DNA of 64,000 nt from Dolichospermum sp. DET69 (GTDB taxonomy: Bacteria > Cyanobacteriota > Cyanobacteriia > Cyanobacteriales > Nostocaceae). Positions 14,212 through 32,516 of this stretch are shown piece after piece. The translations under genes were made by a program, and so were the position numbers. The DNA is taken from positions 4,745,501 through 4,809,500 of the forward strand of contig CP070233.1 of the NCBI GenBank assembly GCA_017355425.1, given 5' to 3'. Numbering within the stretch: the stretch's first letter is position 1; each line of letters opens with the position of its first letter. A model generated the notes under the pieces. That model was given only the letters and a program-made list of their open reading frames with translations. It searched no databases and was not told where the DNA came from.

Positions 14212-14338
14212 CAGTTAATGAATATTTTAATTGTAATATCTTACAATAAAGTGCGATCGCATTAAAAAGGCGATCTCCCTCCTCTAATCAGTTGGGGATT
14301 CGATATACCAACGTTATATTAGGTTGCCTAAATTTTTA

Positions 14339-14364
14339 TAGAGACCTTCCATGGAAGGTCTCTA
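14339..14364. terminator. 26-bp perfect palindrome after the RiPP enzyme genes
   Basis: TAGAGACCTTC / GAAGGTCTCTA centred on CCATGG, a perfect palindrome 20 bases beyond the stop codon of the SagB-like gene. A closely related palindrome stands at 17659-17688. It would fold in RNA but has no long U tract, so it is either a terminator or a dispersed palindromic repeat that marks the 3' end of this operon. Confidence 0.55.
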
Positions 14365-14383
14365 CAACTAAGAAAGCTTTTTA

Positions 14384-15118
14384 TTACTGATAACTACCAG
14401 TACCGACAGCAACACAGTAAAGAGCCGCATGACGTTCCCCGTCAATACCCAAAATAGTGTTCAAACCCATATCATTAAATCCACCAATACAAAGACTGTC
14501 CAGCCCCAATTGCACAGCCATTAAACATACATTTTCAGCTTGATGACCAGCTTCCAAAAGCGCAAAGCGATAACCCCGCGCACCATATTTACACATAGAT
14601 CGCATAAAAACAGATGTGAACACAAATAGAGCATTGGCATTCACAATGTAATCTTGCTGTAACAATGGTTCTACAAAATCTGCTGGTACTGCCTCATTCA
14701 CCCAATGTAGCCCATGTCCGCGAGGTTCATAGTGATATAGTCCAGCACCTAGACCTGCTACTGCTTGTGTAGAAACGAACATCTCCAGCGGATAAAGTCC
14801 TCCGGCAGAAGGTGAGTTGCGAGCTTCATAAAATTGACCGTCTACTTGACGCAGCCCGTGAAGTCCACATCCTGCGTCGAGCAATTGAGCCAAGCAGACG
14901 AGTGGCATGACATGATTCTCAAATGATCGCACAGAAGAACGCGCCGCCAAAAGCTCATTTAGTGGGCTATTGCGTGGTGCTTTTGGCAATTCCAGAAAAG
15001 GATCTTCTGGCAGATACCGCAGTTCAGTAGCCGGAACCCGCTTAACATAACTTTTAGGGACAGGAGAATTCAAATGATACAGGAGAGCTAACTCCAGAGG
15101 TTCATTAACTTTGTGCAT
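14384..15118 (-). CDS. SagB-type FMN dehydrogenase (TOMM azoline oxidase)
   Basis: A 244-residue nitroreductase-fold protein of the SagB/McbC group: ARSSVRSF near the N-terminus (FMN phosphate contact), PSAGGLYPLEMFV, LYHYEPRGHGL, and the C-terminal EAGHQAENVCLMAVQLGLDSLCIGGF segment. In this family the enzyme oxidises azolines made from Cys/Ser/Thr to aromatic azoles using FMN. It lies 18 bases downstream of the YcaO gene on the same strand, as the last member of the operon. The family assignment is firm; action on the neighbouring precursor is inferred from position. Confidence 0.9.
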   Translation of the reverse strand: MHKVNEPLELALLYHLNSPVPKSYVKRVPATELRYLPEDPFLELPKAPRNSPLNELLAARSSVRSFENHVMPLVCLAQLLDAGCGLHGLRQVDGQFYEARNSPSAGGLYPLEMFVSTQAVAGLGAGLYHYEPRGHGLHWVNEAVPADFVEPLLQQDYIVNANALFVFTSVFMRSMCKYGARGYRFALLEAGHQAENVCLMAVQLGLDSLCIGGFNDMGLNTILGIDGERHAALYCVAVGTGSYQ

Positions 15119-15136
15119 GATTCTAATTTCCTTATT

Positions 15137-16447
15137 TTAAGCCATAGGATGGGGGCAGCGATTGAGATCATTTATTGTCCGTCGGCCACCATAACCCAAC
15201 CTTTCTGGGACTTCAAACAAACGCCGAGTTCCCAGTGGCTCTTGTCCATAACCAAAATATATGGGAACGATTTCACTAGCTAAAGTCCGCACCACGCGGA
15301 ACCCAAGGGAGGCAATATCAGGGGTTGTAATATCCACTAAATAGGGTTCAGCACCCACTGAATGCAGCCTAGTAACTACTGACTGTAATTTCTCTGCTTC
15401 TGCTTGAGATTCATAAATTGGTAGATATTCAACTTGGCAAGATTTGTTATGGTGAAATAAGAAATCCAACTCATTTAGGCGAGACGTTGTATAAAAGAAA
15501 GCGTTGTGATCGTCCAAATTCTTGACATCGCTATATTGATGGAGATTAGCCCCAGCCCCGGTAGTCATTCGTTCTATGTCACCAAAGCGGGCTTGACAAA
15601 CTTCAAAAATCGCCTTATTAAAAGCCGTTGCCCCATCCAGATGGCATCCCATACCAGTGGCCACAGCCGGACTTTTGCCCGAACGGTCAATTAACATAGC
15701 CAGGACCACTGGGACTTGAATATCAGTAGTCAAATCAAAGGCAACTAGCTCAATTCCAAATCTAGCGTAGTGGCGGGCAATTTCCGTCTCAATTCCTGGT
15801 AGGTGGTCGAAATAGATGCGGGGAGCAGGGAGGCGATTTAACCAGGTAATAATAAAAGCATCGCGCTCAATTAACTCACACAAGCCCCGGTAGGCAGCAA
15901 ACTCCAGATCAGGACCACTAGCCATACCATTAGAAGTAACAGGTAAAATATGATCTCCTTGTTGGTCGCCGTCCCAGTCCAAATAAACCAAGAAAGCTGG
16001 GACTAAAACCTGTTGGTTGCTGGCTAAAGACAGAGCAGTTATCCAGGAAGTCTGCATTGCTGGATCAAAAGCTGGGAAAGGGAAATTTGGATTGGAGTAT
16101 TGTTGGTCAGAAAAAGGGGAAAAAACTGAAGGAGGAACGGCACGACTACCTAATTCTTCATAACTACCAAAAGTCAGTTGCCGATAATCAACAATACCGC
16201 CACAATATCTTTCTATAGCTTCGCCCACAGCCCCAAAAATAGCCTGCTCATCAGTCATGCCCCTACCGACACCGTAGCGTAAATCATCCTGCTGTTTGCG
16301 AAGCTGGAAACTTGCTAATTCAGCTTGCCACAAAACCGGGAAATCAAACTCCGTATAAGGCTTGTTAAATCTATCTAAAGCTCGGATAATCCCAGTATGA
16401 GGGCTGACCAAATCACGCCAGCGGGGACTTGCAATTGTTGTATTCAC
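15137..16447 (-). CDS. YcaO-domain cyclodehydratase (TOMM)
   Basis: A 436-residue YcaO protein. The ATP-site motifs are visible: GEAIERYCGG (about residues 77-86), SNGMASGPDLEFAAYRGLCELIERDAF and the ATGMGCHLDG / KAIFEVCQAR segment. The C-terminus is PHPMA, a proline-containing tail of the sort that reaches the active site in azoline-forming YcaOs. The enzyme would use ATP to activate backbone amides of the precursor and cyclise Cys (or Ser/Thr). It sits 11 bases after the E1-like gene and 18 before the dehydrogenase, so the three are one operon. Confidence 0.93.
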   Translation of the reverse strand: MNTTIASPRWRDLVSPHTGIIRALDRFNKPYTEFDFPVLWQAELASFQLRKQQDDLRYGVGRGMTDEQAIFGAVGEAIERYCGGIVDYRQLTFGSYEELGSRAVPPSVFSPFSDQQYSNPNFPFPAFDPAMQTSWITALSLASNQQVLVPAFLVYLDWDGDQQGDHILPVTSNGMASGPDLEFAAYRGLCELIERDAFIITWLNRLPAPRIYFDHLPGIETEIARHYARFGIELVAFDLTTDIQVPVVLAMLIDRSGKSPAVATGMGCHLDGATAFNKAIFEVCQARFGDIERMTTGAGANLHQYSDVKNLDDHNAFFYTTSRLNELDFLFHHNKSCQVEYLPIYESQAEAEKLQSVVTRLHSVGAEPYLVDITTPDIASLGFRVVRTLASEIVPIYFGYGQEPLGTRRLFEVPERLGYGGRRTINDLNRCPHPMA

Positions 16448-16458
16448 CTTCTTCTCTC

Positions 16459-17613
16459 CTATCTTTTTCTGTTCCCTGTTCCCTGTTCCCTATTCCCTTT
16501 CTTAGGTGAACAATGAGGACAACCTGGTTTCTTCAGGACAACGTTATGAGTGAGATTTGTACCGAGTAAGTCCAGATGCAATAATTTTCCGTCAGTAGCC
16601 ATAGGTAGACCAAGAATCATTTTCACAGACTCCAGAGCTAAGTAACTGCCAACCAACATCTGGGCTATGGGCAAATTTTCGCGCAGCCGTGGTTGAGAAA
16701 GGCGTTCTCGGTTTAGCAACTGCTCAATTGCCAATTCCGCATCTGGCAGCTTAGAACAGGCCATAGACCGCATCCGATAGCATAGATAGCAAGGTCCCTC
16801 CTGGGAAAAAACCAGTGGACCAACAGTTCCCTCCACACCAGCCGCCCCACCTGGTAACAATGGGCGCTCCATCTTCAGGCATAATCTATTGAGACGATAT
16901 GCCAGATTGACTGATACGGCATCAGTGGCAACAATCACGAGGTCAACGTCATCCAGCAAAGGATTGATTGTTGCGTCATCAGTTAAAGCATCGGTGATAA
17001 TCTCAGTTTGGGTGACTCCACCAATGGACTCAATTTGTCGAGCCGCTTCTACACCCCGAAAAGCACCGATTTTATGCAATACCGAACCTGACATGATCAG
17101 AGAATCGGATGGAACTGTGTAGGCATCATCACATAAACGGAGAAAACCGATACCAGCAGTAGCTAGATTGATTGCTGCTATCAGTCCCGAACCTCCCAGC
17201 CCAAACACAGCAATCCTCGCATTGGCTAAGTGTTTCTGAACATCCTTTTTGTCAAAGCCTAACTCATGATAAAGGCTGACTTGAGGAAGTAAATAAGCAC
17301 GACTATCTAAATCAACCGTATTTTCTAAAGACTCTTCCACCAAGCGATTATCCATCAAAAACTCTAAACATTGATTTAGTGAAGAAGCTGTCAACTTTTC
17401 GCCAATTGCATCTCGGATTTCTCCTATGGTTCGAGAGCCGTCTAGTAAAGGTAAAACGATGTTTTCTACATCATGTAGAGCTTGACCTTTTACTCTCAGA
17501 GTTCGCCGCGTCGTATTGAAGATCATACTTTCTTCGCCACTACAATCTGACGGCATCACATTAATAACAACGTGTTCTAATAGCCGTAGTCGCTGATCAT
17601 CATTTAATTTCAT
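16459..17613 (-). CDS. E1-like (ThiF) TOMM leader-binding partner protein
   Basis: A 384-residue protein. Residues 1-95 have the winged-helix character of a RiPP recognition element (TLRVKGQALHDVENIVLPLLDGSRTIGEIR), followed by an E1/ThiF domain with VFGLGGSGLIAAINLA. A four-Cys zinc site is visible as CYLC and CPHC. In TOMM systems this partner binds the leader peptide and presents the core to YcaO. The final residues come from a GGGAACAG short-repeat tract, so the C-terminus has drifted. It starts about 100 bases downstream of the precursor gene, with a palindrome between. Confidence 0.88.
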   Translation of the reverse strand: MKLNDDQRLRLLEHVVINVMPSDCSGEESMIFNTTRRTLRVKGQALHDVENIVLPLLDGSRTIGEIRDAIGEKLTASSLNQCLEFLMDNRLVEESLENTVDLDSRAYLLPQVSLYHELGFDKKDVQKHLANARIAVFGLGGSGLIAAINLATAGIGFLRLCDDAYTVPSDSLIMSGSVLHKIGAFRGVEAARQIESIGGVTQTEIITDALTDDATINPLLDDVDLVIVATDAVSVNLAYRLNRLCLKMERPLLPGGAAGVEGTVGPLVFSQEGPCYLCYRMRSMACSKLPDAELAIEQLLNRERLSQPRLRENLPIAQMLVGSYLALESVKMILGLPMATDGKLLHLDLLGTNLTHNVVLKKPGCPHCSPKKGNREQGTGNRKR

Positions 17614-17658
17614 AAAATTTGTTTGAGGAATTGAATACTTGTCAGTGCGTTTCCTAGA

Positions 17659-17688
17659 TGTAGAGACGTTCCATGGAACGTCTCTACA
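17659..17688. terminator. Palindrome between precursor and enzyme genes
   Basis: A 30-base perfect palindrome, TGTAGAGACGTTC / GAACGTCTCTACA around CCATGG, lies between the stop codon of the precursor gene (17712) and the start of the E1-like gene (17613). As RNA it is a strong stem. In RiPP operons such a stem commonly leaves more precursor than enzyme message. No U tract follows, so partial termination or 3'-end protection is more likely than full stop. Confidence 0.6.
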
Positions 17689-17711
17689 TTCTGTTCTCTC
17701 TCCAGGTTTAG

Positions 17712-18065
17712 TTAGTATCCAAATCCAATTTCATCAGTGTCATCCAACACACTTGATATTGTTCCATTATCGCTAAATCTACATCCCCCACAGCCAGTAC
17801 AAGGTCTACAGCCACCACAGCCACGGCATCCACAGCCACCACAGCCACGGCATCCACCACAGCCACGGCATCCACCACATCCACCACCGCAATTAGCAAA
17901 CCATCTTTGGGTGGTTTCAGAGTCAAATACTCCCGACATTGCTAGTTTTTCTAAAGCTGCTATTTCCTCCTCCGATAACAAAAGTCTTTCGAGTCTATCT
18001 GCTTTGTCTACTAAACGCATTTCTACAGTTGGTTGGTCCAGTGTTTTTTCTGCAAGCATTGTCAT
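17712..18065 (-). CDS. TOMM/RiPP precursor peptide with Cys-Gly-Gly core
   Basis: A 117-residue peptide preceded by a good ribosome-binding site (AAGGAG, near 18069-18074). Residues 1-58 form a charged helical leader (DKADRLERLLLSEEEIAALE) with no Cys. Residues 59-97 hold 13 Cys in CGGC, CRGC and CGC steps separated by Gly and Arg, and about 20 residues of follower end in GFGY. The core DNA is internally repetitive. Leader, core and follower, plus adjacent E1-like, YcaO and SagB genes, fit an azol(in)e-type precursor similar in style to the heterocycloanthracin family. A metal-binding Cys-rich protein is the alternative. I know of no named product. Confidence 0.85.
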   Translation of the reverse strand: MTMLAEKTLDQPTVEMRLVDKADRLERLLLSEEEIAALEKLAMSGVFDSETTQRWFANCGGGCGGCRGCGGCRGCGGCGCRGCGGCRPCTGCGGCRFSDNGTISSVLDDTDEIGFGY

Positions 18066-18989
18066 CTACTCCTTTTAATTTAAACTCAATAACCTGTTGG
18101 CAAATCTATATTCGAGTTCAATCAACAATTAAGAGTCCTTCAAGAAGCTGGTTTAATTTGCTTTTTGAATTTTTAATTGTTAATTCTGCCATGGGATAAT
18201 AGCCGACAAAATGTCAAAATCACTTTCTGATTAGTGCGGGTAAGTATCAGATATAATTTGTATTTCCCCGTCATCTTTCTAGCCAAATATTGTTCTTGTT
18301 AGCATTGCAAATTATATCTTTTTTGCTTACCCAACTTCTATAAGAATATCTTTTCCTGTCAGATTTGCTTCATTCTTAAGTAGTATTAGTTTTACTATTG
18401 ATAGTGAAGAAAGCAATTCATTAAATTGGGTTGATGATGCGTAAAGTTCTGGAAATAGAAAGTAATCTGATGGTTTAGCTTGATTTTAAATAATTTATAG
18501 GTAAGTTAAAAATGTAGTTCTATTTCTTTATGATTACTACTTTAGTAAGGTATTCATCCTTTTTTATTTTTCAGCATTTTATTTAAAGAAACCAAATTAG
18601 GCATTTAATAATCCTTTAATTATCAAGCCTCTATAGATTCTATGCAGTTTTGATATCCGTAAAAATCCTGAATTAACTATATATTTGAATATTTCTCATA
18701 TATTCATCCCTAAGAAGTGGAGAACAAAAATTTTGACAATTAGAATAAAAAAATAATATAGGAATCATCAATGATATTTGAAAAATTTTCACTTTTGGTC
18801 AGCAATACCCAGCAGAACCTGTGCCAATTTAGCATCAACCTTTTGCAATCAGAGAATTGTCTAACATTTTTATGACTTACGCAAAAATCAGGAAAGAATG
18901 AACCACGAAGGAGCGAAGGACACGAAGGAAAGAGAGTTTGAGAGATATTTTGCGTAAGTCCTAATTTTATCAAAAATCAGGTTTAATTA
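18066..18989. promoter_or_regulatory. Divergent intergenic region of the RiPP locus
   Basis: About 920 A+T-rich bases between the minus-strand precursor operon and the plus-strand exporter operon, so both promoters should lie here. I cannot name either promoter with confidence. The only structured part is the inverted repeat at 18874-18960. Confidence 0.4.
18874..18960. repeat. Short inverted-repeat element
   Basis: GACTTACGCAAAA (18874-18886) and TTTTGCGTAAGTC (18948-18960) are exact inverted copies. They enclose a purine-rich stretch with GAAGGAGCGAAGGACACGAAG. A similar interior occurs at 22150-22215, so this is a dispersed element. It stands just upstream of the ABC exporter gene. Confidence 0.75.
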
Positions 18990-20804
18990 ATGAGCGATTT
19001 TAGAGTTTGGTTTGGAGACTGCACTAGAGTTTTATTTCGTTCTTTGCCTTTGTTATGGACAGCAGCACCTCAAGAAATGATCTTTTTGATTGCTGTGACT
19101 TTATTGCAAGGGTTTCTTCCGGGAATTAGTGTTTGGATTACCAAGCTAGTAGTAGATGCTGTAGCCACAGCCTTAACATCTGGAAGAGCATTAGACGATT
19201 CAATTCTCTGGCCTTTAGTAGCAGCATGGGTGGGAGCTTTGCTACTAGAAACGCTTTTATATCCTTGGATATTTGCACTTCAGGGGAATCTCAATGACAA
19301 GTTAGCAGCTCACATTAGTTTATTGTTAATGCGAAAAGCTGATAGTTTTGCCGACCTCAGCCGTTTTGAAGATGCTGAATTCTATGATGAGCTACAACTG
19401 CTCCAACAACAAGTTAGTTATAAACCGTTAAACTTAGTCGAAAATTTGGTGGAATTAAGTCGCTCTTTGGTGACTTTAATTGTAGTAGTCGGGTTACTAA
19501 TTCCACTGGCTATTTGGATACCATTGGTAATTGCGATCGCTACTATACCCCAAATAGTAGTTTCTTCCCAATACGGTAGGGCTATTTGGCTCACTTTATT
19601 TGAAAACAGTCCCCAAGCTCGGAGAATGCAGTATTACACCACAGTAATGCTGACTGATACCTATGCCAAAGAAATCAGATTGTTTCAGCTAGGCTCATTT
19701 TTTATGGAGCTTTACGGACAAGCTTTTCAATCGTTACATCAATCTATGCGTCATCTGCGGGGTAAACAAGCATTTTGGTCATCTAGTTTAGCTATTCTCA
19801 GTACATTAGGAAATGGGTTTGCTTTCTATTGGGTGGTACAAAAAGCTTTTCGAGGAGCATTTAGTCCGGGTAGTGTCCTGCTGTTTGTTCAGTCATTAAC
19901 TTACTTTCAAAATAATTTAGAAAGATTCGTCAGTCATTGGTTGGATCTATTTGAGAATATTATTTATATGCAGCAGTTTTTCAATTTTCTTGATAGTCCT
20001 ACCCCAATGGTATTAAACATACCTGGAGAAAAAATCCCCACTCCGATTCGTTCCGGTATTACTTTTGAACAAGTTGATTTTCACTATCCAGATGGTAGAT
20101 TAGCACTCAAGGATATTTCTTTTACTCTTTATCCAGGGGAAACAGTAGCCATAGTTGGAGAAAATGGTGCGGGAAAAACTACTTTAGTCAAGCTATTAAC
20201 TAGGCTCTATGATCCCACAACCGGACGGATTATTGTTGATGGTATAGACCTGAGAGATTTAAATTTACAACAGTGGCGACAACAAATTGCTGGAGTTTTT
20301 CAAGACTTTGGCCACTACTCCCTGACAATAGGGGAAAATATCGCATTAGGAAATTTAGCGGCTTTAGAAAATCGAGAGATTCTTAAATATGCGGTAGAAA
20401 AAGCCGATATCGTCAAACTAGTTGCTGATTTTCCCAGCGGGGAAGATACACAATTGGGTAAACAGTTTGGCGGTACGGAACTTTCTGGAGGACAGTGGCA
20501 AAAGTTAGCCCTAGCTCGGGCTTTTGTCCGCAAAGAAGCCCAACTACTACTTCTGGATGAGCCTACCGCAGCACTTGACCCCCGCAGCGAGTGTGATTTT
20601 TACCTTCGCTTTGTTGAACTAGCTGAAGGCAAAACTACTATTCTCATTACTCACAGATTAGCCTCAGTGCGAATGGCTGACCGGATTTTAGTCCTCAAAG
20701 ATGGTCATTTAATTGAGGATGGTACTCATCAGGAACTGTTACAAAGTGGAGGCGAATATACTGCCCTATGGAATATGCAGGTAAAACAGTACGGGGTATC
20801 ATGA
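18990..20804 (+). CDS. ABC exporter (membrane and ATPase domains fused)
   Basis: A 604-residue half-transporter. Residues about 15-330 contain five to six membrane segments; residues 345-590 contain the nucleotide-binding domain with Walker A GENGAGKTT, the variant signature LSGGQWQ, Walker B LLLLDEPTAALD and the H-loop in TILITHRLASVR. There is no C39 protease domain, so it would export the product without cleaving the leader itself. It is divergent from the precursor operon, and its TGA overlaps the ATG of the adaptor gene (ATGA). Export of the modified peptide is inferred from context. Confidence 0.88.
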   Translation: MSDFRVWFGDCTRVLFRSLPLLWTAAPQEMIFLIAVTLLQGFLPGISVWITKLVVDAVATALTSGRALDDSILWPLVAAWVGALLLETLLYPWIFALQGNLNDKLAAHISLLLMRKADSFADLSRFEDAEFYDELQLLQQQVSYKPLNLVENLVELSRSLVTLIVVVGLLIPLAIWIPLVIAIATIPQIVVSSQYGRAIWLTLFENSPQARRMQYYTTVMLTDTYAKEIRLFQLGSFFMELYGQAFQSLHQSMRHLRGKQAFWSSSLAILSTLGNGFAFYWVVQKAFRGAFSPGSVLLFVQSLTYFQNNLERFVSHWLDLFENIIYMQQFFNFLDSPTPMVLNIPGEKIPTPIRSGITFEQVDFHYPDGRLALKDISFTLYPGETVAIVGENGAGKTTLVKLLTRLYDPTTGRIIVDGIDLRDLNLQQWRQQIAGVFQDFGHYSLTIGENIALGNLAALENREILKYAVEKADIVKLVADFPSGEDTQLGKQFGGTELSGGQWQKLALARAFVRKEAQLLLLDEPTAALDPRSECDFYLRFVELAEGKTTILITHRLASVRMADRILVLKDGHLIEDGTHQELLQSGGEYTALWNMQVKQYGVS

Positions 20805-22123
20805 AACCCAAAAATCTGATTCCTTGGCTAATTGGGCTGGCTATATTTAGTTTATCGGGAGTTGGTATTGCTTATTTCAGCCATTGGTATCAACCTGCTA
20901 AGGATGATATTACAGATTTAACCGTCCCTGTTACTACCAGCAACTTAAAAATTAAAATCAAAACCAATGGAGTTGTCCAACCAGTCCGCAAAATAAATAT
21001 TGGACCGAGAGAAGCAGGTAAAATTGCTAAACTCTATGTAGATGAAGGTAGTTCTGTTTACAAAGGCCAATTAGTGGCAGAAATGGAGCGTCAAGCTTTT
21101 CAAGCCCAAGTGAATCAGTATCGGGCAATGTTATTGAAAGCAAAAGCCGATTTGCAAGAAAAGCGCAAGGGTTACAGACCAGAAGAAATTGCGATCGCTC
21201 AAGCTGATGTACATAAATATACAGCACAAGTACGGGAAGCCCAATCTCGTTTGGTATTAGCCACTCAACGAGTCAAGCGCAGACAATATCCTGTATCTCA
21301 AGGGGCAATATCTCGTGATGATTTAGATACAGCTTTGAATGAAGAAAAAAGCACCAAAGATAATTTACAACAAGCTAAATTTAGTCTCATATCTGCTCAA
21401 CAGCAACTAAAAAAACTACTTTCCGGCTATCAGTCTGAGGAAATTACTAAGGCCGCTGCTGAGGTAGCCCAGGCAACTGCCCAGTTACAATTTTACGAAA
21501 CCCAGTTAGAAAATACTTACATTCGCGCTCCTTTCTCTGGCTTAATTACCCGGCGTTTTGCCCAAGCAGGTGACTTTGTAACCCCAAATACTTCCGTTTC
21601 TACCAATGAAGGAGGAACTAGCGCCTCAATTGCCGAATTAGCCAGTGGTTTGGAGATAGAAGCTAAAGTTCCCGAAGTAAATATGGCAAAGATTAAGCAA
21701 AATCAGCCTGTGGAAATTCGTCTTGATGCTTTTCCTGAACAAGTTTTTCAAGGAAAAGTTCGTTTGATTGCTCCTAGAGGTGTCAAGGAAGAAAATGTCA
21801 CATTTATGCGAGTTAAGGTAGCTTTGGCAACAGGTCAAGATCAACTCAAGGTGGGGCTAAATGTCAAGTTAACTTTTCTCGTAAATGACATTCCCAATGC
21901 TTTGGTAATTCCTTCGGCTGCGGTGATATCTGGAAAGGAAGGCCAAGTGGGTGTACTTTTACCAGACAAAGATAATCAGGCAAAATTCCATCCTGTTCAA
22001 GTCGGAATTACATCTGGGGATAAAACCCAGATTTTGAGTGGACTTTCTCAGGGTGAACGGGTTTTTATTCAACCACCACCTAATCAATTAATTGATGGTA
22101 TTGACCGTCAGATTGGATCTTAG
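20801..22123 (+). CDS. HlyD-family periplasmic adaptor protein
   Basis: The start is placed at the ATG at 20801, because it overlaps the exporter stop codon (ATGA) and begins MKPKNLIPWLIGLAIF, an N-terminal membrane anchor. The protein is 440 residues: a lipoyl/barrel half (VNIGPREAG-like KLYVDEGSSVYKGQLVAEME), a long coiled-coil hairpin about residues 90-220, then YIRAPFSGLITRRFAQAGDFV and beta-barrel strands. This is the membrane-fusion part of a tripartite exporter. It is coupled to the ABC exporter upstream, with a MacB-like permease downstream. Confidence 0.88.
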   Translation: MKPKNLIPWLIGLAIFSLSGVGIAYFSHWYQPAKDDITDLTVPVTTSNLKIKIKTNGVVQPVRKINIGPREAGKIAKLYVDEGSSVYKGQLVAEMERQAFQAQVNQYRAMLLKAKADLQEKRKGYRPEEIAIAQADVHKYTAQVREAQSRLVLATQRVKRRQYPVSQGAISRDDLDTALNEEKSTKDNLQQAKFSLISAQQQLKKLLSGYQSEEITKAAAEVAQATAQLQFYETQLENTYIRAPFSGLITRRFAQAGDFVTPNTSVSTNEGGTSASIAELASGLEIEAKVPEVNMAKIKQNQPVEIRLDAFPEQVFQGKVRLIAPRGVKEENVTFMRVKVALATGQDQLKVGLNVKLTFLVNDIPNALVIPSAAVISGKEGQVGVLLPDKDNQAKFHPVQVGITSGDKTQILSGLSQGERVFIQPPPNQLIDGIDRQIGS

Positions 22124-22139
22124 TCTACTGCTTTCTTAG

Positions 22140-22260
22140 CAGACAAATATAGATTAAATGAACCACGTTCGCGGAGCGTCCCGGAGGGATATAGGAGCGA
22201 AGGACACGAAGGAAGAAGGAAGAAGGAAGAAGAAGGAAGAAATTTTATGCTAGGGAAGGG
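22140..22260. repeat. Degenerate dispersed repeat in the exporter operon
   Basis: Between the adaptor and permease genes lies CGCGGAGCGTCCCGGAGGGA, a palindromic word widely scattered in Nostocales genomes, followed by GGAGCGAAGGACACGAAGGA, also present at 18910-18930, and a GAAGAAGG tract. It separates two genes that otherwise belong to one operon. Confidence 0.7.
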
Positions 22261-22263
22261 AGT

Positions 22264-23469
22264 ATGAATTTGCTGGAAAGTGTAAATATGGCTTTTGCAA
22301 CTATCTCTGCTAATAAACTTCGTAGCGGACTGACGATGCTGGGGATAATTATTGGCAATGCTTCTGTTATTAGTATGATCGGTATTGGACAGGGCGCACA
22401 GAATCTTGTATTGGGCAAGCTTGAGGCGTTTGGCGCAAATCAACTGACAGTATATACCAATTTTGAAGATGATGAGGGGATGAAATTTCCTGATGCTCAA
22501 TTGGTGTTATCAGACGCGGAAGCAATTAAGGCACAAGTTCCCAGTGTTACTAAAGTTGCTCCTGTAGATGAACAGAAAATGTCAATCAGTTTTAATAATA
22601 AGTTAATATCAACAACTGTTAAAGGGACTACATCTGATTTACTCGCTGTCCAGAATCTTATTCTTGTTACTGGCAGAATGTTTAATCAAACACAACAGGA
22701 ACAACAGGCTCAAGTTACTGTTTTGGGTGCGGAAACTAGCCGGAAGCTATTCGGTGATAAAAATCCTGTTGGGAAAGAGGTGATGATTAATAATATATCT
22801 TTTCAAGTTATTGGTTTGTTGCAATCAAAAGGTGCATTTGCTGGGGAGAATTTGGATCAAACTGCTATTGTCCCACTCACAACTTATGCTAATAGGTTAG
22901 TGGGACGGAGATCAATATCTGATATTCCTATTAGTTACATTTTGGTAACGGCAAAAAATAGAGATAGTGTTCGTACCGCAGGTTTTCAAATTACTAATGT
23001 TCTGTCTCGATTACATGGTAAAAAAGATATAGCTGTTTTTGCTAATAAAAAGTTTCAAGAATTAGTGTTACAGGTAACTGGTATTTTGTCATTATTATTA
23101 GCTTTGATTGCGGCTATTTCTTTGTTAGTCGGTGGAATTGGCATTATGAATATTATGTTAGTTTCTGTGACGGAACGCACTCAAGAAATTGGTTTACGGA
23201 AAGCTGTTGGCGCAACTCAGAATGATATTTTAATGCAGTTTTTAATTGAAGCGATTATTCTCTCTCTTTCTGGGTGTTTATTGGGAATAATTTTAGGAGT
23301 TGGGGGAACTTTGCCGTTAGCATTTTTCACGCCTTTGACTCCTCAATTTCCTCTGTATGCTGTTGTTGTAGCTGTGGGCATATCCGGGAGCATAGGCTTG
23401 ATTTTTGGTGTGTTTCCTGCCCGACAAGCTGCTATGCTAGACCCAATTGTCGCTCTGAGAAGTGGTTAA
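22264..23469 (+). CDS. MacB/FtsX-like ABC permease
   Basis: A 401-residue permease. The first membrane helix lies near residues 15-38 (SANKLRSGLTMLGIIIGNASVISMIGIG). A periplasmic MacB-PCD domain follows, then three helices after residue 270 (LLLALIAAISLLVGGIGIMNIMLVSVTERTQEIGLRKAVGA), the FtsX signature. There is no ATPase domain, and no separate MacB-type ATPase gene is present in the window. The insertion element begins 120 bases downstream, so an ATPase gene may have been displaced. With the HlyD adaptor it would form an export or surface-delivery complex. Confidence 0.85.
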   Translation: MNLLESVNMAFATISANKLRSGLTMLGIIIGNASVISMIGIGQGAQNLVLGKLEAFGANQLTVYTNFEDDEGMKFPDAQLVLSDAEAIKAQVPSVTKVAPVDEQKMSISFNNKLISTTVKGTTSDLLAVQNLILVTGRMFNQTQQEQQAQVTVLGAETSRKLFGDKNPVGKEVMINNISFQVIGLLQSKGAFAGENLDQTAIVPLTTYANRLVGRRSISDIPISYILVTAKNRDSVRTAGFQITNVLSRLHGKKDIAVFANKKFQELVLQVTGILSLLLALIAAISLLVGGIGIMNIMLVSVTERTQEIGLRKAVGATQNDILMQFLIEAIILSLSGCLLGIILGVGGTLPLAFFTPLTPQFPLYAVVVAVGISGSIGLIFGVFPARQAAMLDPIVALRSG

Positions 23470-23678
23470 TTAGGATTTGCTGATAGCGGAGCGTGACGTA
23501 ATTTATGGACAGGAAACAGAAAAACCTTGACAAAACATCTTTATCTGCGTTTATTTGCGTTTAATTAGTATTAATATTTTATTCTATGTAGCTAGGACTA
23601 GCCCTTTCAAGGTGTTGTGTAATGGGGTGATTTGTAGTTTGGTTAAGAGAGGTGAAAATCACAGGGTGGAGAAAAAAA

Positions 23679-24782
23679 ATGAGTCTAGGGCAAGTATTTG
23701 AGCGGTTTATCAAAGAGAGTCCAGTATCAGTGATGATTCGTGGGCTTTTAGAAAAAGCACTAAGTCCACAAATTTTGGATGAACTATTTGAACGCACTGC
23801 GAAAACTCAGTACACCCGTGAATTATTATTCTCTACAGTCGTAAATTTAATGAGTCTTGTGGTGTGCGGAGTCCACCCATCAGTGAATGCAGCACATCAA
23901 GCATTAGCCGAAGAAATAGGAGTTTCAGTCACATCAGTCTATAACAAAATCAATGGCATTGAGCCAAATACCAGCACGGAATTAGTCAGAGAGGTTGCTG
24001 GTCAAATGGAAGCGACAATTCGGCATCTCAACGCTACGATACCTAATCTGCTCCCAGGTTATCGAGTGAAAATAATTGATGGTAATGCTATTGCCGCCAG
24101 TGAACATCGTTTAAAAGAACTACGCCAAATTAGTAGTGCCCCATTACCAGGAAAGTCCTTAGTTGTACTAGACCCTAGCTTGATGTTGGCAGTAGATGTA
24201 TTTCTTTGTGAAGACGGTCATGCCCAAGAGCGTTCTTTATTTAACGAGGTACTATCAACTGTTGAAGAAGATGATGTTTGGATCGCTGACCGGAATTTTT
24301 GTACACTCAAGTTTTTATTTGGAATCGCTAGTCAAAAAGGCTACTTTATAATTCGACAGCATCAAAGTATGCCTTGGCAAGAGACCGATGATTTCCGTTT
24401 AGTTGGTCAAAACGATAGTGGTGTTGTGTTTGAGCAAAACATCATGTTAAGTGCGGATGATGGTCATCTCTTAAAAACTCGCCGAATCAAGGTGAGCCTG
24501 AAACAACCTAATCGTGATGGCGATAAGGAAATTTTTATTCTTACTAATTTGCCTTCTCAAGTTGCAGATGCACTACTTGTAGCTAAACTATACTGCAAAC
24601 GTTGGAAGATTGAAACATTGTTTCAAGTCCTCACAGAAAATCTTCTCTGCGAGATTAATACATTAGGTTATCCAAAAGCTGCCTTATTTACCTTTTGTAT
24701 TGCATTAGTCGCCTATAATGTCCTATCTGCGGTTCAGGCAGCACTTAGAAGTGTTCATGGAACTGATAAGGTAGAAACCGAA
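23679..24782 (+). CDS. IS4-family transposase, 5' exon
   Basis: The frame begins at ATG 23679 (a GTG at 23652 is also possible) and runs to the intron boundary at 24782. DDE residues are visible in KIIDGNAIA (first Asp), DVWIADRNFC (second Asp) and YCKRWKIETLFQ (Glu of the YREK-like motif). The exon ends on a complete codon (VETE). Joined to the downstream exon it reads VETE-ISSYYLADEI, which fits the usual C-terminus of this transposase type. After splicing the protein would be about 460 residues with an intact active site. Confidence 0.88.
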
Positions 24783-27259
24783 GTGCGAATCGTTGGCTAG
24801 AAACTAAAAACCCGTAAGGGTTTTGGAGGATTAGCCGCAAGGTACAAAACCTTGACAACTGAATGACCATGTAGGTGAGAGCCATTATCCTAGAACCCCT
24901 CAAACCCTACCCCGTAGGTGCAACGGTGAAAGCATCACCCCCAGGTTCGAGACTAGCCATCAAAGCCTGAAGCGGGGTGAAAAGGTGTTATTACTGACAG
25001 CCTAAGTTGGTAAGCATCGAGCAAAGTACCCATGAGTAAAGCCTAGGCTTGAAGATGCGATTGAATCGTCGTGACTACCAACCAGCGAAATAAGGCTAAA
25101 GGCGCTGGAGTCAAAAGACACAGGATAAGGAGTTGGCAATGTTCGGTTTGACCAATTTGCACTTCCAATAAACCCGGCGAATAGCATCACTCTAAAGGTA
25201 CACAGCATGGTCATTCGGAACGAGATAACCTCTCGCTTGCTCTCAGGTGATCGAATACCTGAGTAGGTGCTAACCGTATGCAACGAGAAGGTGAGATTAA
25301 ATCAAAAGCGAATGTCTGGGGTAATGCCCAGAATATGCTGACAGATTTACGGTGATTTGGATGATAAAGTCCCAAGTAGTGAGTATATATGTCTAATACA
25401 CAGTCTCAACAACTGATGGTGGAATGGCACTCTATTAACTGGCGCAAGCTAGAACGTAGCGTGTATAAGCTCCAAAAGAGAATTTATCAAGCCTCCGCCC
25501 GTGGTGATGTAAAAGCATATCGCAGACTCCAAAAGACGCTGATGAAGTCATGGTCAGCAAGAGCTTTAGCGGTTCGTAGAGTCACCCAGGATAACCAAGG
25601 GAAAAAGACGGCTGGTGTAGATGGCGTTAAATCGCTGACTCCAAAACAGCGTCTAGAACTCACTGGAAATCTAAACCTGGGGTCAAAGGTCAGTCCAACT
25701 AGACGGGTATGGATTCCTAAGCCTGGAACGGAAGAGAAACGACCTTTGGGAATACCTACAATGAAAGACCGAGCCTTGCAAGCACTTGTCAAACTGGTAT
25801 TAGAGCCAGAATGGGAAGCGCGATTTGAGCCTAACTCTTATGGGTTCAGAGCCGGACGCTCATGCCATGATGCAATAGGGGCAATATTTAACGCTATCAA
25901 CGGGAAACCAAAATATGTTCTCGATGCCGATATTGCCAAATGTTTTGACCGCATCAACCAGGAAAAACTGCTAATAAAATTGAATACATCCCCCACCATC
26001 CGCAGACAAATTCGCGCATGGTTAAAAGCGGGAGTGATGGACGGTAAGCAGTTGTTTCCAACATCTGAGGGTACGCCACAGGGCGGGGTAATTTCCCCAT
26101 TACTGGCAAATATTGCCCTCCACGGGATGGAAGAACGGATTAAGCAATATACAGAAACGCTGGAAGGAAGGAAGCAGCATAATTATCAAAGCCTCAGCTT
26201 AATCAGATATGCCGATGACTTTGTTATTCTCCACAAAGACATAACCGTTGTCCAAAGATGCAAAGAGATAATCTCTGAATGGTTACAAGGCATGGGTTTG
26301 GAATTAAAGCCTAGTAAAACGAGACTTACTCACACCCTCCATCAGTATGAGCAAGAAAAACCAGGGTTCGACTTCCTTGGTTTTACGATACAACAATTTC
26401 CAGTAGGAAAGTATCACTCGAAGCAGGGCTTTAAAACAATCATCACCCCAAGCAAGCAGAAGCAAAAGGTACACTACGACCAAATCGCCAGTGTTATTGA
26501 AGCTCATAAGGCAGCACCGCAAGCGGCGCTAATCAGCCGTTTAAACCCAATAATTAGGGGATGGGCAAATTACTACGCGACTGTGGTAAGTAAGGTGACT
26601 TACTCAGATATTGACCACCTTATTTACCAAAAGTTAAACGCTTGGGCAAAACACCGTCACCCCAAAAAGAACGGGAAATGGGTGTCAAAAAGGTATTGGC
26701 AATCCATAGACGGTGATAACTGGGTATTCGCAACCAGGAAGGAAGGTTCAACCTCACTTCGGTTACTAAATCATGCCGACACGCCAATAGTGCGTCATGT
26801 GAAAGTCAAAGGCGAATCGTCACCATACGACGGAAATCTGGTTTACTGGAGTACAAGAATGGGTAATAACCCAGAAATGCCAACCAGAGTATCAAAACTC
26901 CTGAAAAAGCAAAAAGGGAAATGTACCCACTGTGAAATGTTTTTCCGTGAAGACGATGTAATGGAAGTTGACCATATCATCCCAAAATCAAAAGGTGGAA
27001 AGGATGAGTATAAAAATCTTCAACTTTTACACAGACATTGCCACGATACAAAGACAGCCAATAATGGCAGTCCTGGCACAAAAATCCGGCTGCAATAGTG
27101 CCGAGCCTAAGCCCACCAGAAAACTTGAAAAAGTCGAAGGAAAATGGGTAATGAGGTGTGCATGACAAGCACCAAATCATTGAGGAGCCGTGTGAAGGGA
27201 AACTTTCATGCACGGTTTTGAAGACCAACGGGGTTGGTGACAACCTCGTTGAGTTTAAT
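24783..27259 (+). other. Group II intron (ribozyme with encoded maturase)
   Basis: The 5' end GTGCG at 24783 matches the GUGYG consensus. About 600 bases of structured RNA precede the reverse transcriptase ORF. Domain V is at 27185-27218, with 8-base stem GAGCCGTG / CACGGTTT. Domain VI follows as AACGGGGTTG, a GTGA loop and CAACCTCGTT. Ending at 27259 (...AAT, an AY end) gives an in-frame exon junction. The 2477-base length and maturase type suggest the chloroplast-like class. The 3' end could be off by a few bases. Confidence 0.9.
25389..27098 (+). CDS. ltrA: Group II intron reverse transcriptase/maturase with HNH domain
   Basis: A 569-residue multidomain protein in the intron. The reverse transcriptase has PKPGTEEKRPLGIPTMKDRALQ, the GFRAGRSCHDA segment, TPQGGVISPLLANI and the catalytic YADD in IRYADDFVILH. 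The maturase (X) domain contains IIRGWANYY, and the C-terminal En domain is an HNH nuclease (CTHCEMFF, VDHIIPKSKGGKDEYKNLQLLHRHCHD). All motifs look intact, so the intron could both splice and retrohome. The start ATG at 25389 lies within domain IV by position. Known members bind their own intron RNA. Confidence 0.95.
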   Translation: MSNTQSQQLMVEWHSINWRKLERSVYKLQKRIYQASARGDVKAYRRLQKTLMKSWSARALAVRRVTQDNQGKKTAGVDGVKSLTPKQRLELTGNLNLGSKVSPTRRVWIPKPGTEEKRPLGIPTMKDRALQALVKLVLEPEWEARFEPNSYGFRAGRSCHDAIGAIFNAINGKPKYVLDADIAKCFDRINQEKLLIKLNTSPTIRRQIRAWLKAGVMDGKQLFPTSEGTPQGGVISPLLANIALHGMEERIKQYTETLEGRKQHNYQSLSLIRYADDFVILHKDITVVQRCKEIISEWLQGMGLELKPSKTRLTHTLHQYEQEKPGFDFLGFTIQQFPVGKYHSKQGFKTIITPSKQKQKVHYDQIASVIEAHKAAPQAALISRLNPIIRGWANYYATVVSKVTYSDIDHLIYQKLNAWAKHRHPKKNGKWVSKRYWQSIDGDNWVFATRKEGSTSLRLLNHADTPIVRHVKVKGESSPYDGNLVYWSTRMGNNPEMPTRVSKLLKKQKGKCTHCEMFFREDDVMEVDHIIPKSKGGKDEYKNLQLLHRHCHDTKTANNGSPGTKIRLQ

Positions 27260-28073: not shown

Positions 28074-28529
28074 TCATTCATTAAATGAGAAAATATAACC
28101 GCGATTGGTTAAAGTTAAAACTGATCTTTTCCATTTAACCCCACCCTTTAGTACTCTATTATTAGTATCAATCTCGATACCACTAATGATGTAGTCCCGT
28201 AGTAGAACATTGTTTTCGACAAGCACTTTTTGTTGACCAGGCTTTATGATAAAATGATGATCTAAACCTGTATCAGCCTCTATTTGTACATTAATCATTT
28301 GATTAGTATTGTTATTGACATAAATATTGCCTGACGTAGGATCAACATTCCGTAATCCTTCTCTAACAGCAGAGTTTTGGTTAGTTGGATCAATATTAGT
28401 CAAACCATGATTTACAGAGTCAACTGCATCACTAAAGAATCCTGCTTGAGCAGATTTTGAAAAGGAAAGTGATAAACCTGAAACCAAACATGAAACAAAA
28501 ATCAGAGTCGAAAACTTGTTAACTTTCAT
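28074..28529 (-). CDS. Exported protein, AGFFS-type leader (member 1)
   Basis: A 151-residue protein. Residues 1-29 are a signal peptide (FSTLIFVSCLVSGLSLSF, cleavage after AQA). The mature start AGFFSDAVDSVNHGLTN is shared with two other genes of the island. The C-terminal 80 residues are beta-rich (NIYVNNNTNQMINVQIE, then a KGGVKWKRS turn) and resemble no family I can name. The promoter region and signal peptide are almost identical to those of the gene ending at 28693, while the C-terminal parts differ. It is probably secreted or periplasmic. Confidence 0.75.
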   Translation of the reverse strand: MKVNKFSTLIFVSCLVSGLSLSFSKSAQAGFFSDAVDSVNHGLTNIDPTNQNSAVREGLRNVDPTSGNIYVNNNTNQMINVQIEADTGLDHHFIIKPGQQKVLVENNVLLRDYIISGIEIDTNNRVLKGGVKWKRSVLTLTNRGYIFSFNE

Positions 28530-28640
28530 AGGATCTACTTCTCAGAATATTGTGATGAAAAACTTTCTAAATTCCAACATTTTTGAATTTAATATATAGG
28601 TAAACTGATAAAAAGTCAGATACTCTTAATATCATTTATA
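28530..28640. repeat. Duplicated promoter region, copy A
   Basis: The bases upstream of the 28074 gene repeat those upstream of the 28693 gene (29197-29300). Shared blocks are CTTCTCAGAATATTGTGATG, GTAAACTGATAAAAAGT and ATACTCTTAATATCATTT, with small gaps between. The duplication carries 5' leader and signal peptide together. Confidence 0.8.
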
Positions 28641-28692
28641 ATCACCTATCTGCTAAGATTAAATTGCTTTCAGCCGATTGAAATTGATTTTG

Positions 28693-29196
28693 CTATCGAC
28701 AATTAATTTGGGTAAAGTAAGAGTCTGCTGGTTGACTTGTCCATACTTTAGGTTTTGAATTAACGGAATTTGGGGAATCTGTAAGACTAAGAATCCATGC
28801 TTGAACTCTTGTACTCCTGTCGCCGTCAAGTATTTTCCAATAGCTAGATCCAGAAGATCCCTTTTTGTTACAATAGCTATTTGCAATGATATCTCTGGCT
28901 TTTTCTGAGCAACTAAGGACATTTGAAGTCCCTCCATTTGATGTATCTACAACATTAGAATAATAATAAGCACAACTACCTACATTCCTATTATCAAAAT
29001 TGGGCAAATTTAAATTTGATTTATAACCACTCGGTGGTTCTGGCATACTTGGTGGAGCAACATTCCTGAATCCGTCTCTAATAGAGTGAACTTGATTACT
29101 AAAGAATCCTGCTTGAGCAGATTTTGAAAAAGAAAGTGAAAGACCTGAAACCAAACATGATACTAAAATCAGAGTCGAAAACTTCTTAACTTTCAT
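28693..29196 (-). CDS. Exported Cys-containing protein, AGFFS-type leader (member 2)
   Basis: A 167-residue protein. The signal peptide and AGFFS start match the neighbour at 28074 almost residue for residue. The rest of the mature protein instead matches the product at 30066-30467: L/WPNF-x2-RN, C-x-YYY, C-x2-K, DI..SYC-K-GS, W..L, AD.YFTQINCR at the end. Conserved Cys residues suggest disulfides and an extracytoplasmic site. It is therefore a hybrid of one gene's leader and another gene's mature domain. The function is unknown. Confidence 0.75.
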   Translation of the reverse strand: MKVKKFSTLILVSCLVSGLSLSFSKSAQAGFFSNQVHSIRDGFRNVAPPSMPEPPSGYKSNLNLPNFDNRNVGSCAYYYSNVVDTSNGGTSNVLSCSEKARDIIANSYCNKKGSSGSSYWKILDGDRSTRVQAWILSLTDSPNSVNSKPKVWTSQPADSYFTQINCR

Positions 29197-30065
29197 AGGA
29201 TATACTTCTCAGAATATTGTGATGAAAAAGTTTTAATTTCACACACAAGTAAACTGATAAAAAGTTAGATACTCTTAATATCATTTTATTACCTGTCAGC
29301 TAAAATTAAATGACTGAAACTCATATACAAACATACTCGATAAAATTCCAAAAGTAAAGTATTTATTCATGAATATTGTGTATGTTTTTTCTATCGAAAT
29401 CGTGGGAGAATATACTTACTTTTCATCAAAAATAAATGCGAAATATACTTACTTTTGAAAATCTTAAAAACTTTTTCATAAATAAGTCTAGATAAATCTA
29501 CACCTATACAATCTTGTTGCTAAGAACGAAGACTCACGCTACAAATACCTAACTGTCATAACCAGAAGGAGAACGGTGATATACTCAATACCTTAGCTAA
29601 TTTTTTAGAACGCCCGCAGAATGCAGGTTTTGGGCTATCGGTTTAAACCTCCATTCAAAAGCCTGAAACCCTTTCTGTCTATGTAATTTAGCTTTTTTGT
29701 CTAGCTCTAACCCTCTAATTTTGGCGAAGGTATTGTTATAGGATCAATTTTTCTGTGGAGTTCTCTAAGCACTCTGGACAATTTAAAAATAACGTTATTG
29801 GTTAAACGAATATTCAAACTTTCTAAAATCCATTTGTTCAATTGCAGCTTCAAAAGCTTTGATTTTATCAGGGTCATCACAGTGACCCCAAAAAACAGAT
29901 TGACAGCCTTTGACACCTTCTATAGGCTGCTTCAAAAGCTTTATCCTATCCATTTTATAAGCATAGCCACCTTGGCATGGGGTTGTAGCGTTAGGAAAAT
30001 GTCCTAACTACCATACCAGCTAGTCAATTAGAATGAAATAGCCCTGCAAAGAGAAGCGCACAAAA
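29197..30065. other. Intergenic region with duplicated promoter and a gene remnant
   Basis: 29197-29300 is promoter copy B of the duplicated leader. Further on, a minus-strand frame around 29805-30006 reads CQGGYAYKMDRIKLL, VFWGHCDDPDKIKAFE and ends in TAA at 29805; it has protein-like composition but no proper start and looks like a 3' gene remnant. Nothing else stands out. Confidence 0.4.
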
Positions 30066-30467
30066 TCAGCGACAATTAATACGAGTAAAGAACCAATCAG
30101 CTGTACCAGATCTCCATTCCCGCGTATCGTCTGCTTTTTCATAAAGTGTCCACGAAACACGTCTATTGTCTACTGTACCTTGAGTCACAGAATAATTTAT
30201 TGCCGTAGATCCTGAACCTACTTTCCGACAATAGGCGCTTGCAATATCATTTCTTTTGCCTTCACAATCTCGACTCTCGTCATCGTTGCCGTAATAGTAA
30301 CAAAGAGAAATGTTTCTGCCCTTAAAGTTTGGCCAACTGGATTCAAATGGGAGAGCTGCGTTTGCAGGAGAAGCAAGCACTAAACTGAATGCACTAACTC
30401 CAAGCATTGAAATTAAACTAACAAAGCTTAAATTGAAACCTACTATAGCAATATTTTTCTTTGACAT
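30066..30467 (-). CDS. Exported Cys-containing protein (INCR C-terminus)
   Basis: The start is placed at the ATG at 30467, since translation from there begins MSKKNIAIVGFNLSF with a long hydrophobic core and an AxA site before ALPFESSWP. The longer frame adds a non-signal leader that overlaps a promoter-like repeat. The mature part (about 95 residues) has Cys in CYYYG, DCEGK, YC-RKVG and INCR, and is homologous to the mature part of the 28693 gene. It is likely a disulfide-bonded secreted protein of unknown function. Confidence 0.72.
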   Translation of the reverse strand: MSKKNIAIVGFNLSFVSLISMLGVSAFSLVLASPANAALPFESSWPNFKGRNISLCYYYGNDDESRDCEGKRNDIASAYCRKVGSGSTAINYSVTQGTVDNRRVSWTLYEKADDTREWRSGTADWFFTRINCR

Positions 30468-30583
30468 TTTTTTGACTCCAGTTAAAGTTGAATTGGCGGT
30501 ATACACAAAACTGTAGCCCCATATACTATGACCCTCACTGACAAGGTAGGAGCAATTAATAAATTTGTCAGTTGCGTTAATTT

Positions 30584-30642
30584 GGGGTAAATATAGCGAG
30601 CGTGTTACCAGACGCAAGTAGTACAAAACCTCAGTTTGTAGT
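30584..30642 (-). promoter_or_regulatory. Conserved upstream element (copy 1)
   Basis: Read on the minus strand, this block of about 59 bases begins ACTACAAACTGAGG and ends GCTCGCTATATTTACCCC. It reappears at 35411-35470 in the same orientation relative to another exported-protein gene. It ends 117 bases before the start codon at 30467. TTGCGT and TATATT, 16 bases apart, look like -35 and -10 boxes, so it is probably a shared promoter. Confidence 0.6.
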
Positions 30643-30780
30643 GAACCTACTCTAATCGTCTTAAAGTCAGCTCTATTACGTCTCGCAAAGTCCAACCGAT
30701 AAACACCTGAGATGTATTTAGCGAAAAGGATAGACCTAAAAAGTGAGATACTTAAACCGCGAGTTCAAATCTGAAGTGCA

Positions 30781-31320: not shown

Positions 31321-31511
31321 AAAAAGTTCCTCAAATCTAAATCGGAAATAGGTCTAGAGAGACGAAACGTGACTGAAATTAGCTTTATACAACTTTAGTT
31401 TCTGTGTATCTGATTCGACAGTCGGTAAAAGGGCTGTAAAAAGTCATTACTATAAAGAGGGCTAGTTCATGGCTTTGAATTGATGAGATTAAGTTTTTGA
31501 TTGTCGATTGG

Positions 31512-32093: not shown

Positions 32094-32516
32094 AAATTGA
32101 GACTTCTAGTGTAACTATATGTTTGAACTGAATTCCATCTAATCTCCATACACCTGCCTTGTCAAGCGGATAAGGTATTGAGCCGAGATAGAAGTAAAAA
32201 CCTGCAAGATGGTCTGGAAAGCGTTGCTATATTACTTGGGCTGTCATTTTTTACCTTAATTTATCTCTCACTTGTGCAAGTGTAATCAATAAAATATTGA
32301 TTGGCAAGTGAAAAATAAAGATAATTAAATTCTTCTAAAAATGAAGTTTTCGTAATGAATATTAAGACTAAAAACCCTTGTAGGATAGCGTATCTATTGC
32401 CAATTAAATATATTTTTGCTACGAGCTATATAGCTTATTTGTCTCTCACTAAGCTGATAAGCGAAACGCCTCTCAACAATTAAGAGGCGTTTTAAATGAA
32501 GAACAGGGAAACGGGG
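31882..32516. repeat. 635-bp segmental duplication, copy 1
   Basis: Nearly identical to 34504-35139. It covers the codons for the first part of the 31512 product (signal peptide and N-terminal domain), its 5' leader and about 400 upstream bases including a hairpin. Similarity ends abruptly on both sides: inside the coding region after PLKSA, and after the GAAACGGGG word. Confidence 0.95.
32464..32494 (+). terminator. Rho-independent terminator-like hairpin
   Basis: A 10-base perfect stem AAACGCCTCT / AGAGGCGTTT with a 9-base loop and a short T run. An identical copy at 35087-35117 comes with the segmental duplication. No plus-strand gene immediately upstream is evident, so it may serve as an attenuator on either strand. 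Confidence 0.6.

Follow-up and report, generated by a model that had tools for sequence, protein, structure and literature searches.

What is made by a locus in which the gene for a small, cysteine-rich peptide is followed, on the same strand, by genes for an E1-like, a YcaO and a SagB-type protein and is faced by transport genes on the opposite strand? Such a locus lies in the window examined here, the whole stretch of 64,000 nucleotides from Dolichospermum sp. DET69, very probably a bloom former, the genome of which comprises 6.04 Mb in two contigs. A preliminary description of the window had read it as a ribosomally synthesized and post-translationally modified peptide (RiPP) system of the azol(in)e type, that is, a thiazole/oxazole-modified microcin (TOMM) locus, with its own export set. 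We regard it as highly probable that the locus is a TOMM, or linear azol(in)e-containing peptide (LAP), cassette working by the mechanism outlined below: the cut-offs of the TOMM models are passed, and the genes for the E1-like (C) and YcaO (D) proteins stand alongside the precursor gene.

Gene content, co-occurrence and the precursor peptide

By open reading frame (ORF) analysis, the precursor gene and the genes for C, D and the SagB-type (B) protein follow each other in one direction on the minus strand (14384-18065), separated by gaps of 98 bp (precursor-C), 11 bp (C-D) and 18 bp (D-B), and the genes for an ATP-binding cassette (ABC) exporter, an HlyD-type protein and a MacB-like permease are divergent from them, on the plus strand (18990-23469). 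All seven are open frames in this strain, and the assignments of the preliminary description are borne out for both strands, the three enzyme genes scoring above the model cut-offs at the places given there. The features are as follows.

17712-18065, minus strand: precursor peptide gene, 117 amino acids, 13 Cys (ORF; 41 further homologues in 40 other genomes)
17892-18065, minus strand: leader, residues 1-58, conserved, upstream of the first Cys (14-sequence alignment; first Cys position in 42/42)
17781-17891, minus strand: core, residues 59-95, 13 Cys in CGG/CRG units (sequence reading)
17715-17780, minus strand: acidic conserved tail, residues 96-117, GFGY at the end, candidate follower (end pattern in 42/42 precursors)
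17657-17690, no strand: palindrome of 14-15 bp in the spacer between the precursor and C genes, possible attenuator hairpin (z -4.29)
16459-17613, minus strand: C protein, E1-like, predicted leader-binding protein and cyclodehydratase partner, two CxxC pairs (ThiF and TIGR03882 matches)
15137-16447, minus strand: D protein, YcaO cyclodehydratase (TIGR03604; PDB relatives MusD, TruD, LynD)
14384-15118, minus strand: B protein, SagB-type azoline dehydrogenase (TIGR03605; PDB relatives include McbC, CyaGox)
18990-20804, plus strand: ABC exporter, membrane domain and ATPase, near-constant partner (Pfam/NCBIfam matches; co-occurrence)
20768-22123, plus strand: HlyD-type periplasmic adaptor (domain matches; HlyD-like gene in 20/40 loci)
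22264-23469, plus strand: MacB/FtsX-like permease without an ATPase domain (domain matches; MacB-like gene in 12/40 loci)
18066-18989, no strand: divergent intergenic region between the precursor and ABC genes, 924 bp (neighbour-gene layout)

The co-occurrence of these genes was traced in 217 genomes of the family with a precursor profile of 14 rows (E up to 1e-5) and with the C protein (E up to 1e-60). The profile matched 42 genomes and C matched 41, with 41 genomes common to both; the remaining candidate, G384, was rejected, its match being a low-complexity Ser-Pro-Cys (SPC/LPC) frame. The cassette is, accordingly, carried by roughly a fifth of the family (41/217), with a core that keeps varying. 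C and D are encoded in 41/41 of the precursor-bearing genomes, SagB in 40/41 and the ABC protein in 40/41, the exception for the latter (L107) being a contig end, so no leader-bearing precursor was found in a genome lacking the E1-like and YcaO genes. In one genome, G128, the precursor and exporter genes are on one contig and C-D-B on another, both ending there, and adjacency is unproven in that genome. Within the genus, the identical 7 of 16 genomes hold both precursor and C.

Across 291 genomes of the order, the precursor was matched at E up to 0.01 in 27, strongly (E below 1e-22) in 9, and the other 18 of the 27 gave weak matches no better than E 3.6e-5, several of them with internal stops. 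A second place in G229 (L109) reaches E 1e-5 and adjoins no cassette gene, this genome also possessing a proper cassette, and G286 has a weak second match (E 7.8e-4). The C protein, at E up to 1e-15 in a 386-genome sample of the phylum with up to five candidates scored per genome, was found in its own family only, in 15 genomes; an exact short-pattern scan of 84,980 species genomes returned seven loci, in Anabaena, Nostoc, Dolichospermum, Trichormus and Sphaerospermopsis, and a search of plasmids yielded no match to the precursor.

Altogether, 42 precursors were read from the 41 genomes. A single genome, G299, encodes two in tandem (locus L091, 9566-9898 and 10054-10452), with differing core lengths. 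All 42 differ from one another, and the homologues show 47-91% identity over the matched stretch. That the short gene is not a chance frame follows from homologues that, in 40 further genomes, accompany these very genes and from a GGAGT ribosome-binding motif at most 22 nt from the precursor start in 35/40 loci. The 117-residue peptide of the window is built as had been described, with a charged leader (12 Asp/Glu, 7 Lys/Arg), the first Cys at residue 59 and 13 core Cys, 10 of the 12 intervals between which span two residues. Here, the leader denotes the stretch upstream of the first Cys and is Cys-free by definition; the first Cys lies at residue 54-65 in 42/42 precursors, and the leader ends in QRWFAN in 31/42. 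The cores comprise 31-55 residues with 9-20 Cys, not counting a lone tail Cys in L093 and another in L101, and consist of Gly (43%), Cys (36%) and Arg (12.5%) for the most part, with a total of 8 Ser and 1 Thr over all 42 cores. With the first Cys of each core excluded (n=584), the intervals between core Cys are of two residues in 479 cases, one in 75, three in 29 and four in 1, and Gly directly precedes Cys in 494/584 (85%).

Beyond the core, every precursor carries a conserved acidic C-terminal tail of 18-27 residues, a feature missed in the preliminary description. It ends in [EGRN]FG[YNH] in 42/42 precursors, with no Lys or Arg among the last 12 residues in 41/42; in the window, it reads RFSDNGTISSVLDDTDEIGFGY. 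The conserved leader and tail, then, enclose a hypervariable core.

A cysteine array of this kind could, in principle, serve a different purpose. Spacing of the CxxC type is typical of metal sites too, and two-residue intervals dominate here (479/584, with 75/584 of one residue), so that the CxxC/CxC array might stay wholly or partly reduced and bind copper or zinc in a metallothionein-like manner, with azoles at few positions and the exporter serving as a metal or chalkophore route. We consider this very unlikely given that C and D are alongside in 41/41 genomes and SagB in 40/41, that core Cys range in number from 9 to 20, unlike a fixed cluster, and that Gly before 85% of the counted Cys suits a cyclodehydratase substrate. 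Furthermore, in scans of 10 window proteins with Pfam and NCBIfam models at E up to 0.1, the precursor matched no family, metal-binding or other, including those of the nitrile-hydratase-like (NHLP) and Nif11 leaders.

The enzymes, the exporter and the predicted pathway

The C protein matches ThiF (PF00899, 1.4e-26) and TIGR03882, 'TOMM precursor leader peptide-binding protein' (51.7 bits, cut-off 36.9), and CYLCY and a CPxC are found in 41/41 C proteins. Its closest solved structures include MoeB, ThiF, MccB and PaaA, the profile matches beginning at position 74-75 (MccB) and 56 (PaaA), and residues 16-89 are modelled, with low confidence (pLDDT 41.9), as three strands followed by three helices. 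The best model for D is TIGR03604, the SagD family (323.7 bits, cut-off 219.25), and MusD, TruD and LynD are its closest solved structures; B matches TIGR03605 SagB (126.6 bits, cut-off 78.4), has McbC and CyaGox among its closest solved structures and belongs to a set in which 37/40 proteins contain KYG.RG[YF]R. A C-terminal PxPxP is a trait of azoline-forming YcaO proteins, and 39/41 D proteins end in P-x-P-x-P, as PCPHP followed by the two last residues.

As a class, YcaO enzymes also make thioamides, amidines and macrocycles, and the pathway might lead to chemistry of this sort rather than to azoles, the more so as D matches the McrA-thioamidation model TIGR03266, below cut-off (121.4 of 365 bits). 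The partners speak for azoles: an E1-like C protein and a SagB dehydrogenase belong to the azole pathway, and TIGR03604 remains the best model for D. Nor is there a widely conserved extra gene in the loci, hence no constant partner such as TfuA (TfuA models not searched separately). We therefore hold a non-azole product to be highly improbable.

From the genes, we infer the following course of events for the azole pathway. The C protein would bind the leader, whereupon the YcaO protein D, using ATP, would close the core Cys, mostly preceded by Gly, to thiazolines, which the SagB enzyme with flavin mononucleotide (FMN) would oxidise to thiazoles. The leader would be cut by a protease encoded elsewhere, the best candidate being TldD/E, as for microcin B17; the genome itself has five TldD/E-like (PF01523) matches. 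According to the available text of one report, TldD/E removes the leader of microcin B17, and its genes frequently lie outside clusters of this sort (PMC10885120). The product, presumably a polythiazole with as many as 13 rings spaced by Gly and Arg, lighter than the unmodified peptide by at most 260.3 Da and with or without the acidic tail, would exit via the ABC exporter, in this genus perhaps aided by HlyD and the MacB-like permease, a role in export that their position and co-occurrence suggest. Judged by its class, the product most likely serves antagonism between bacteria.

The notion of an export set proper to the cassette holds in part. The ABC gene is present in 40/41 genomes, and in the genus the block behaves like a unit: orthologues of the ABC gene (93% or more) occur in the 7 genomes with the cassette and nowhere else among the 16, where the next match reaches no more than 38%, and those of the MacB-like gene (93% or more) are limited to the same 7/16, with a paralogue of ~50% in all 16. 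In the genus, then, the block is present or absent as a whole, in support of the preliminary reading. On the other hand, an HlyD-like gene occurs in only 20/40 loci and a MacB-like gene in 12/40, these counts leaving out L041, the exporter contig of G128, which has both. Across the family, ABC alone is a near-constant partner, and HlyD and MacB are lineage-specific ones. In L092, L099 and L102, an HlyD/MacB pair is located on the opposite side, beyond SagB, with 49% and 56-57% identity to the proteins of the window. The Pfam matches of the ABC protein include no peptidase.

Several observations weigh against the proposed assignment. By simple patterns, ELIERD is found in only 38/41 D proteins and GEA[IL]ER[YF] in 26/41, a G.G[GA].G-type pattern is found in only 31/41 C proteins, and the D protein of the window and that of the sister genome, G128, read RCPHP, the first Pro of P-x-P-x-P having been lost. 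The AlphaFold model of C, built from a 7-sequence alignment, is poor (mean pLDDT 41.9), and the leader-binding fold is only predicted; in L103 (G338), one of the relatives, SagB is absent from the neighbourhood. Within ~9 kb, no further gene, protease and immunity genes included, recurs in more than 7/40 loci, the next commonest neighbour cluster being present in 7/40, so that the conserved genes do not account for leader removal or self-protection. Between the leaders of the window and the sister genome there are 1 synonymous and 5 non-synonymous changes, a count that does not show constraint. Finally, no isolated product of such a cassette was found in the literature searched, from which most subscription journals were out of scope.

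More tentatively, and with less than even credence, the locus may be pictured as a leader-core-follower azole RiPP system, in which near-constant enzymes, leader and acidic -FGY tail are combined with an exchangeable core of 9-20 Cys, rebuilt or swapped from species to species, that would become a strain-specific, rigid Gly-thiazole rod; the tail would provide a further signal, for recognition or export, and be removed afterwards. To our knowledge, a conserved C-terminal tail, if it is a follower, is unusual for a linear azole peptide. The rods of such a system might target nucleic acids or topoisomerase, as microcin B17 does. The cassettes lend themselves to examining how a YcaO enzyme handles 9 to 20 sites and tolerates a changing core and are, conceivably, a source of programmable polythiazoles.

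Relation to described peptide systems

Of ten TOMM groups without an explored product distinguished by Cox, Doroghazi and Mitchell in 2015 (PMC4603692), one, the anabaenasins, is described in the accessible text as comprising 11 species and five precursors, with a discrete cyclodehydratase, a unique C protein and Gly/Cys-rich precursors, and as having D proteins most similar to those of haloazolisin and mobilisin. The locus of the window, matched by this published description and not by sequence, probably belongs to the group, and we have considerable confidence in the placement: C and D are discrete, the precursors are rich in Gly and Cys, an Anabaena strain is among the producers, and C may likewise be unlike others, own-family genomes being the only ones in the 386-genome phylum sample that resembled it at E up to 1e-15. 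There are differences as well. The anabaenasin locus of Anabaena sp. 90 has a transposase between C and D (PMC4603692), which is found in none of the 41 genomes here, the C-D gap, at most 215 bp, being too small for a transposase in all of them; and the anabaenasin section, so far as its accessible text goes, is silent on a C-terminal tail, which is conserved here, and on a constant exporter, to which the ABC protein comes close here. The name itself was not encountered outside Cox et al. 2015 in the literature searched. The preliminary description had recognized no named cyanobacterial product of this kind. With respect to isolated products, this stands; the gene-cluster group, in contrast, was very probably named in 2015 (on the accessible text of PMC4603692), and the locus is less novel than had been held.

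Other cyanobacterial work touches on the same ground. The genome of Anabaena sp. 90 is reported, in the text accessible, to hold seven putative bacteriocin clusters with unknown products (PMC3542288), and the accessible part of a 2023 account of azole clusters in marine Synechococcus lists SyncA/Nif11-type and other precursors (PMC10783134). Wang et al. 2011 (PMC3140520) does not mention cyclodehydratase, YcaO, SagB, TOMM or dehydrogenase, and 'thiazole' appears in its references only. Cyanobactins of the patellamide type are likewise cyanobacterial, have a D protein related to that of our locus (TruD/LynD) and vary the core between a conserved leader and a C-terminal sequence; unlike them, the locus has unfused C and D and a long Cys/Gly core. 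A PatA/PatG protease was not found among the 10 scanned window proteins, and the limit of 7/40 loci applies to any further gene (PatA/PatG models were not searched separately in the relatives).

Among systems from other bacteria, heterocycloanthracin and sonorensin, which are TOMMs of Bacillus, share the Cys-Xaa-Xaa repeat core. The precursor described here, in contrast, is not a member of the heterocycloanthracin family TIGR03601 (no NCBIfam match at E up to 0.1), C and D are discrete, and the precursor gene adjoins the enzyme genes. Microcin B17, the gyrase poison that is made by McbBCD and processed by TldD/E, resembles the product predicted here in the E1-like/YcaO/SagB-type trio, in the Gly-rich core, with Gly preceding the heterocyclised residues in microcin B17, and maybe in an unlinked TldD/E. 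It differs in that the core of our locus is nearly devoid of Ser and Thr, which would leave thiazoles only, in that an acidic tail is conserved, in that the loci have no conserved immunity gene and in that export would depend on a single fused ABC protein.

Two genes elsewhere in the window concern gyrase. In a DNA gyrase B of 923 aa (43270-46041, plus strand), the Toprim match is immediately preceded by an intein splicing domain (PF14890, residues 489-716), which is of some interest given that gyrase is the target of microcin B17. A 122-aa pentapeptide-repeat protein is encoded at 980-1348 (minus strand), ~13 kb from the cassette; pentapeptide-repeat proteins protect gyrase in some systems.

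Descent of the cassette and integrity of the window locus

The tree of D proteins comes near to grouping by genus, with 11 label changes for 11 groups (minimum 10), and suggests that descent was mostly vertical, with loss. A mobile cassette was rejected as the main explanation because the tree tracks genera so closely; genera g2, g6 and g151 do not each lie on one side of a branch, and some transfer or paralogy is possible. A CGRPCGGC core occurs in L040, L041/L110 and L095, which are placed apart in the D tree, on three branches with CRG-type relatives next to each, and the supported branches force three changes of core type, the same number as is obtained with shuffled labels for three rows. 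In comparison with the sister genome, DNA identity is 0.97 in the leader, 0.72 in the core, 0.78 in the tail and 0.61 in the spacer, suggesting that the core-tail-spacer stretch was replaced, the stretches being short and leader and tail identity being correlated over all pairs (Spearman 0.69).

Selection was gauged in 34 of the 40 pairs with the window, six being excluded for a differing leader length or start. The leader has a dN/dS (ratio of non-synonymous to synonymous substitution rates) of ~0.08 to 0.36 in 33/34 pairs; for the 16 codons of the tail, dN exceeds dS in 8/34 pairs, and purifying selection is not clear. Against a further relative, the enzymes show dN of 0.04-0.08 at dS of 0.54-0.58.

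The spacer between the precursor and C genes holds an unusual palindrome in place of the hairpin common in relatives. The pairing AAACCCTG...CAGGGTTT is present, by a simple pattern, in 15/40 loci, with other palindromes or none elsewhere, and a single conserved hairpin element was rejected because the relatives vary in palindrome or have none. Copies of the palindrome of the window, at 14338-14365 and 17660-17687, flank C-D-B, one with 3 mismatches to the pattern, where shuffling expects 0. Around the operon, terminator-like sites are not enriched (2, with a shuffle mean of 3.8), and promoter-like sites are about as frequent as in shuffles (12 versus 10.1).

The unusual palindrome is one of three features that would fit a cluster that is decayed or inactive in this strain, the others being the lost first Pro in D and the elements directly past the MacB-like gene (23652-27259, plus strand), namely, an IS4-family transposase and, after it, a group II intron. 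Decay is nevertheless improbable: the seven genes are open, the lengths of precursor, C, D, B and ABC fall inside the span observed in the relatives, and, relative to the sister genome, C has a dN of 0.03 at a dS of 0.15, D of 0.017 at 0.13, B of 0.011 at 0.06 and ABC of 0.001 at 0.10. In the group II intron, an ORF for a reverse transcriptase (RT)/maturase-HNH protein occupies 25389-27098, and the intron RNA match 27183-27259.

Farther downstream, the minus strand at 28074-34716 encodes look-alike small proteins that appear to be secreted (28074-28529 and 28693-29196; 31512-32093 and 34177-34716); the two that were scanned, 28693-29196 and 31512-32093, had no Pfam match. At 37216-39805, a DDE_5 transposase ORF adjoins an ORF of 372 aa whose match to an AcrB-type resistance-nodulation-division (RND) pump is limited to the final third of the pump.

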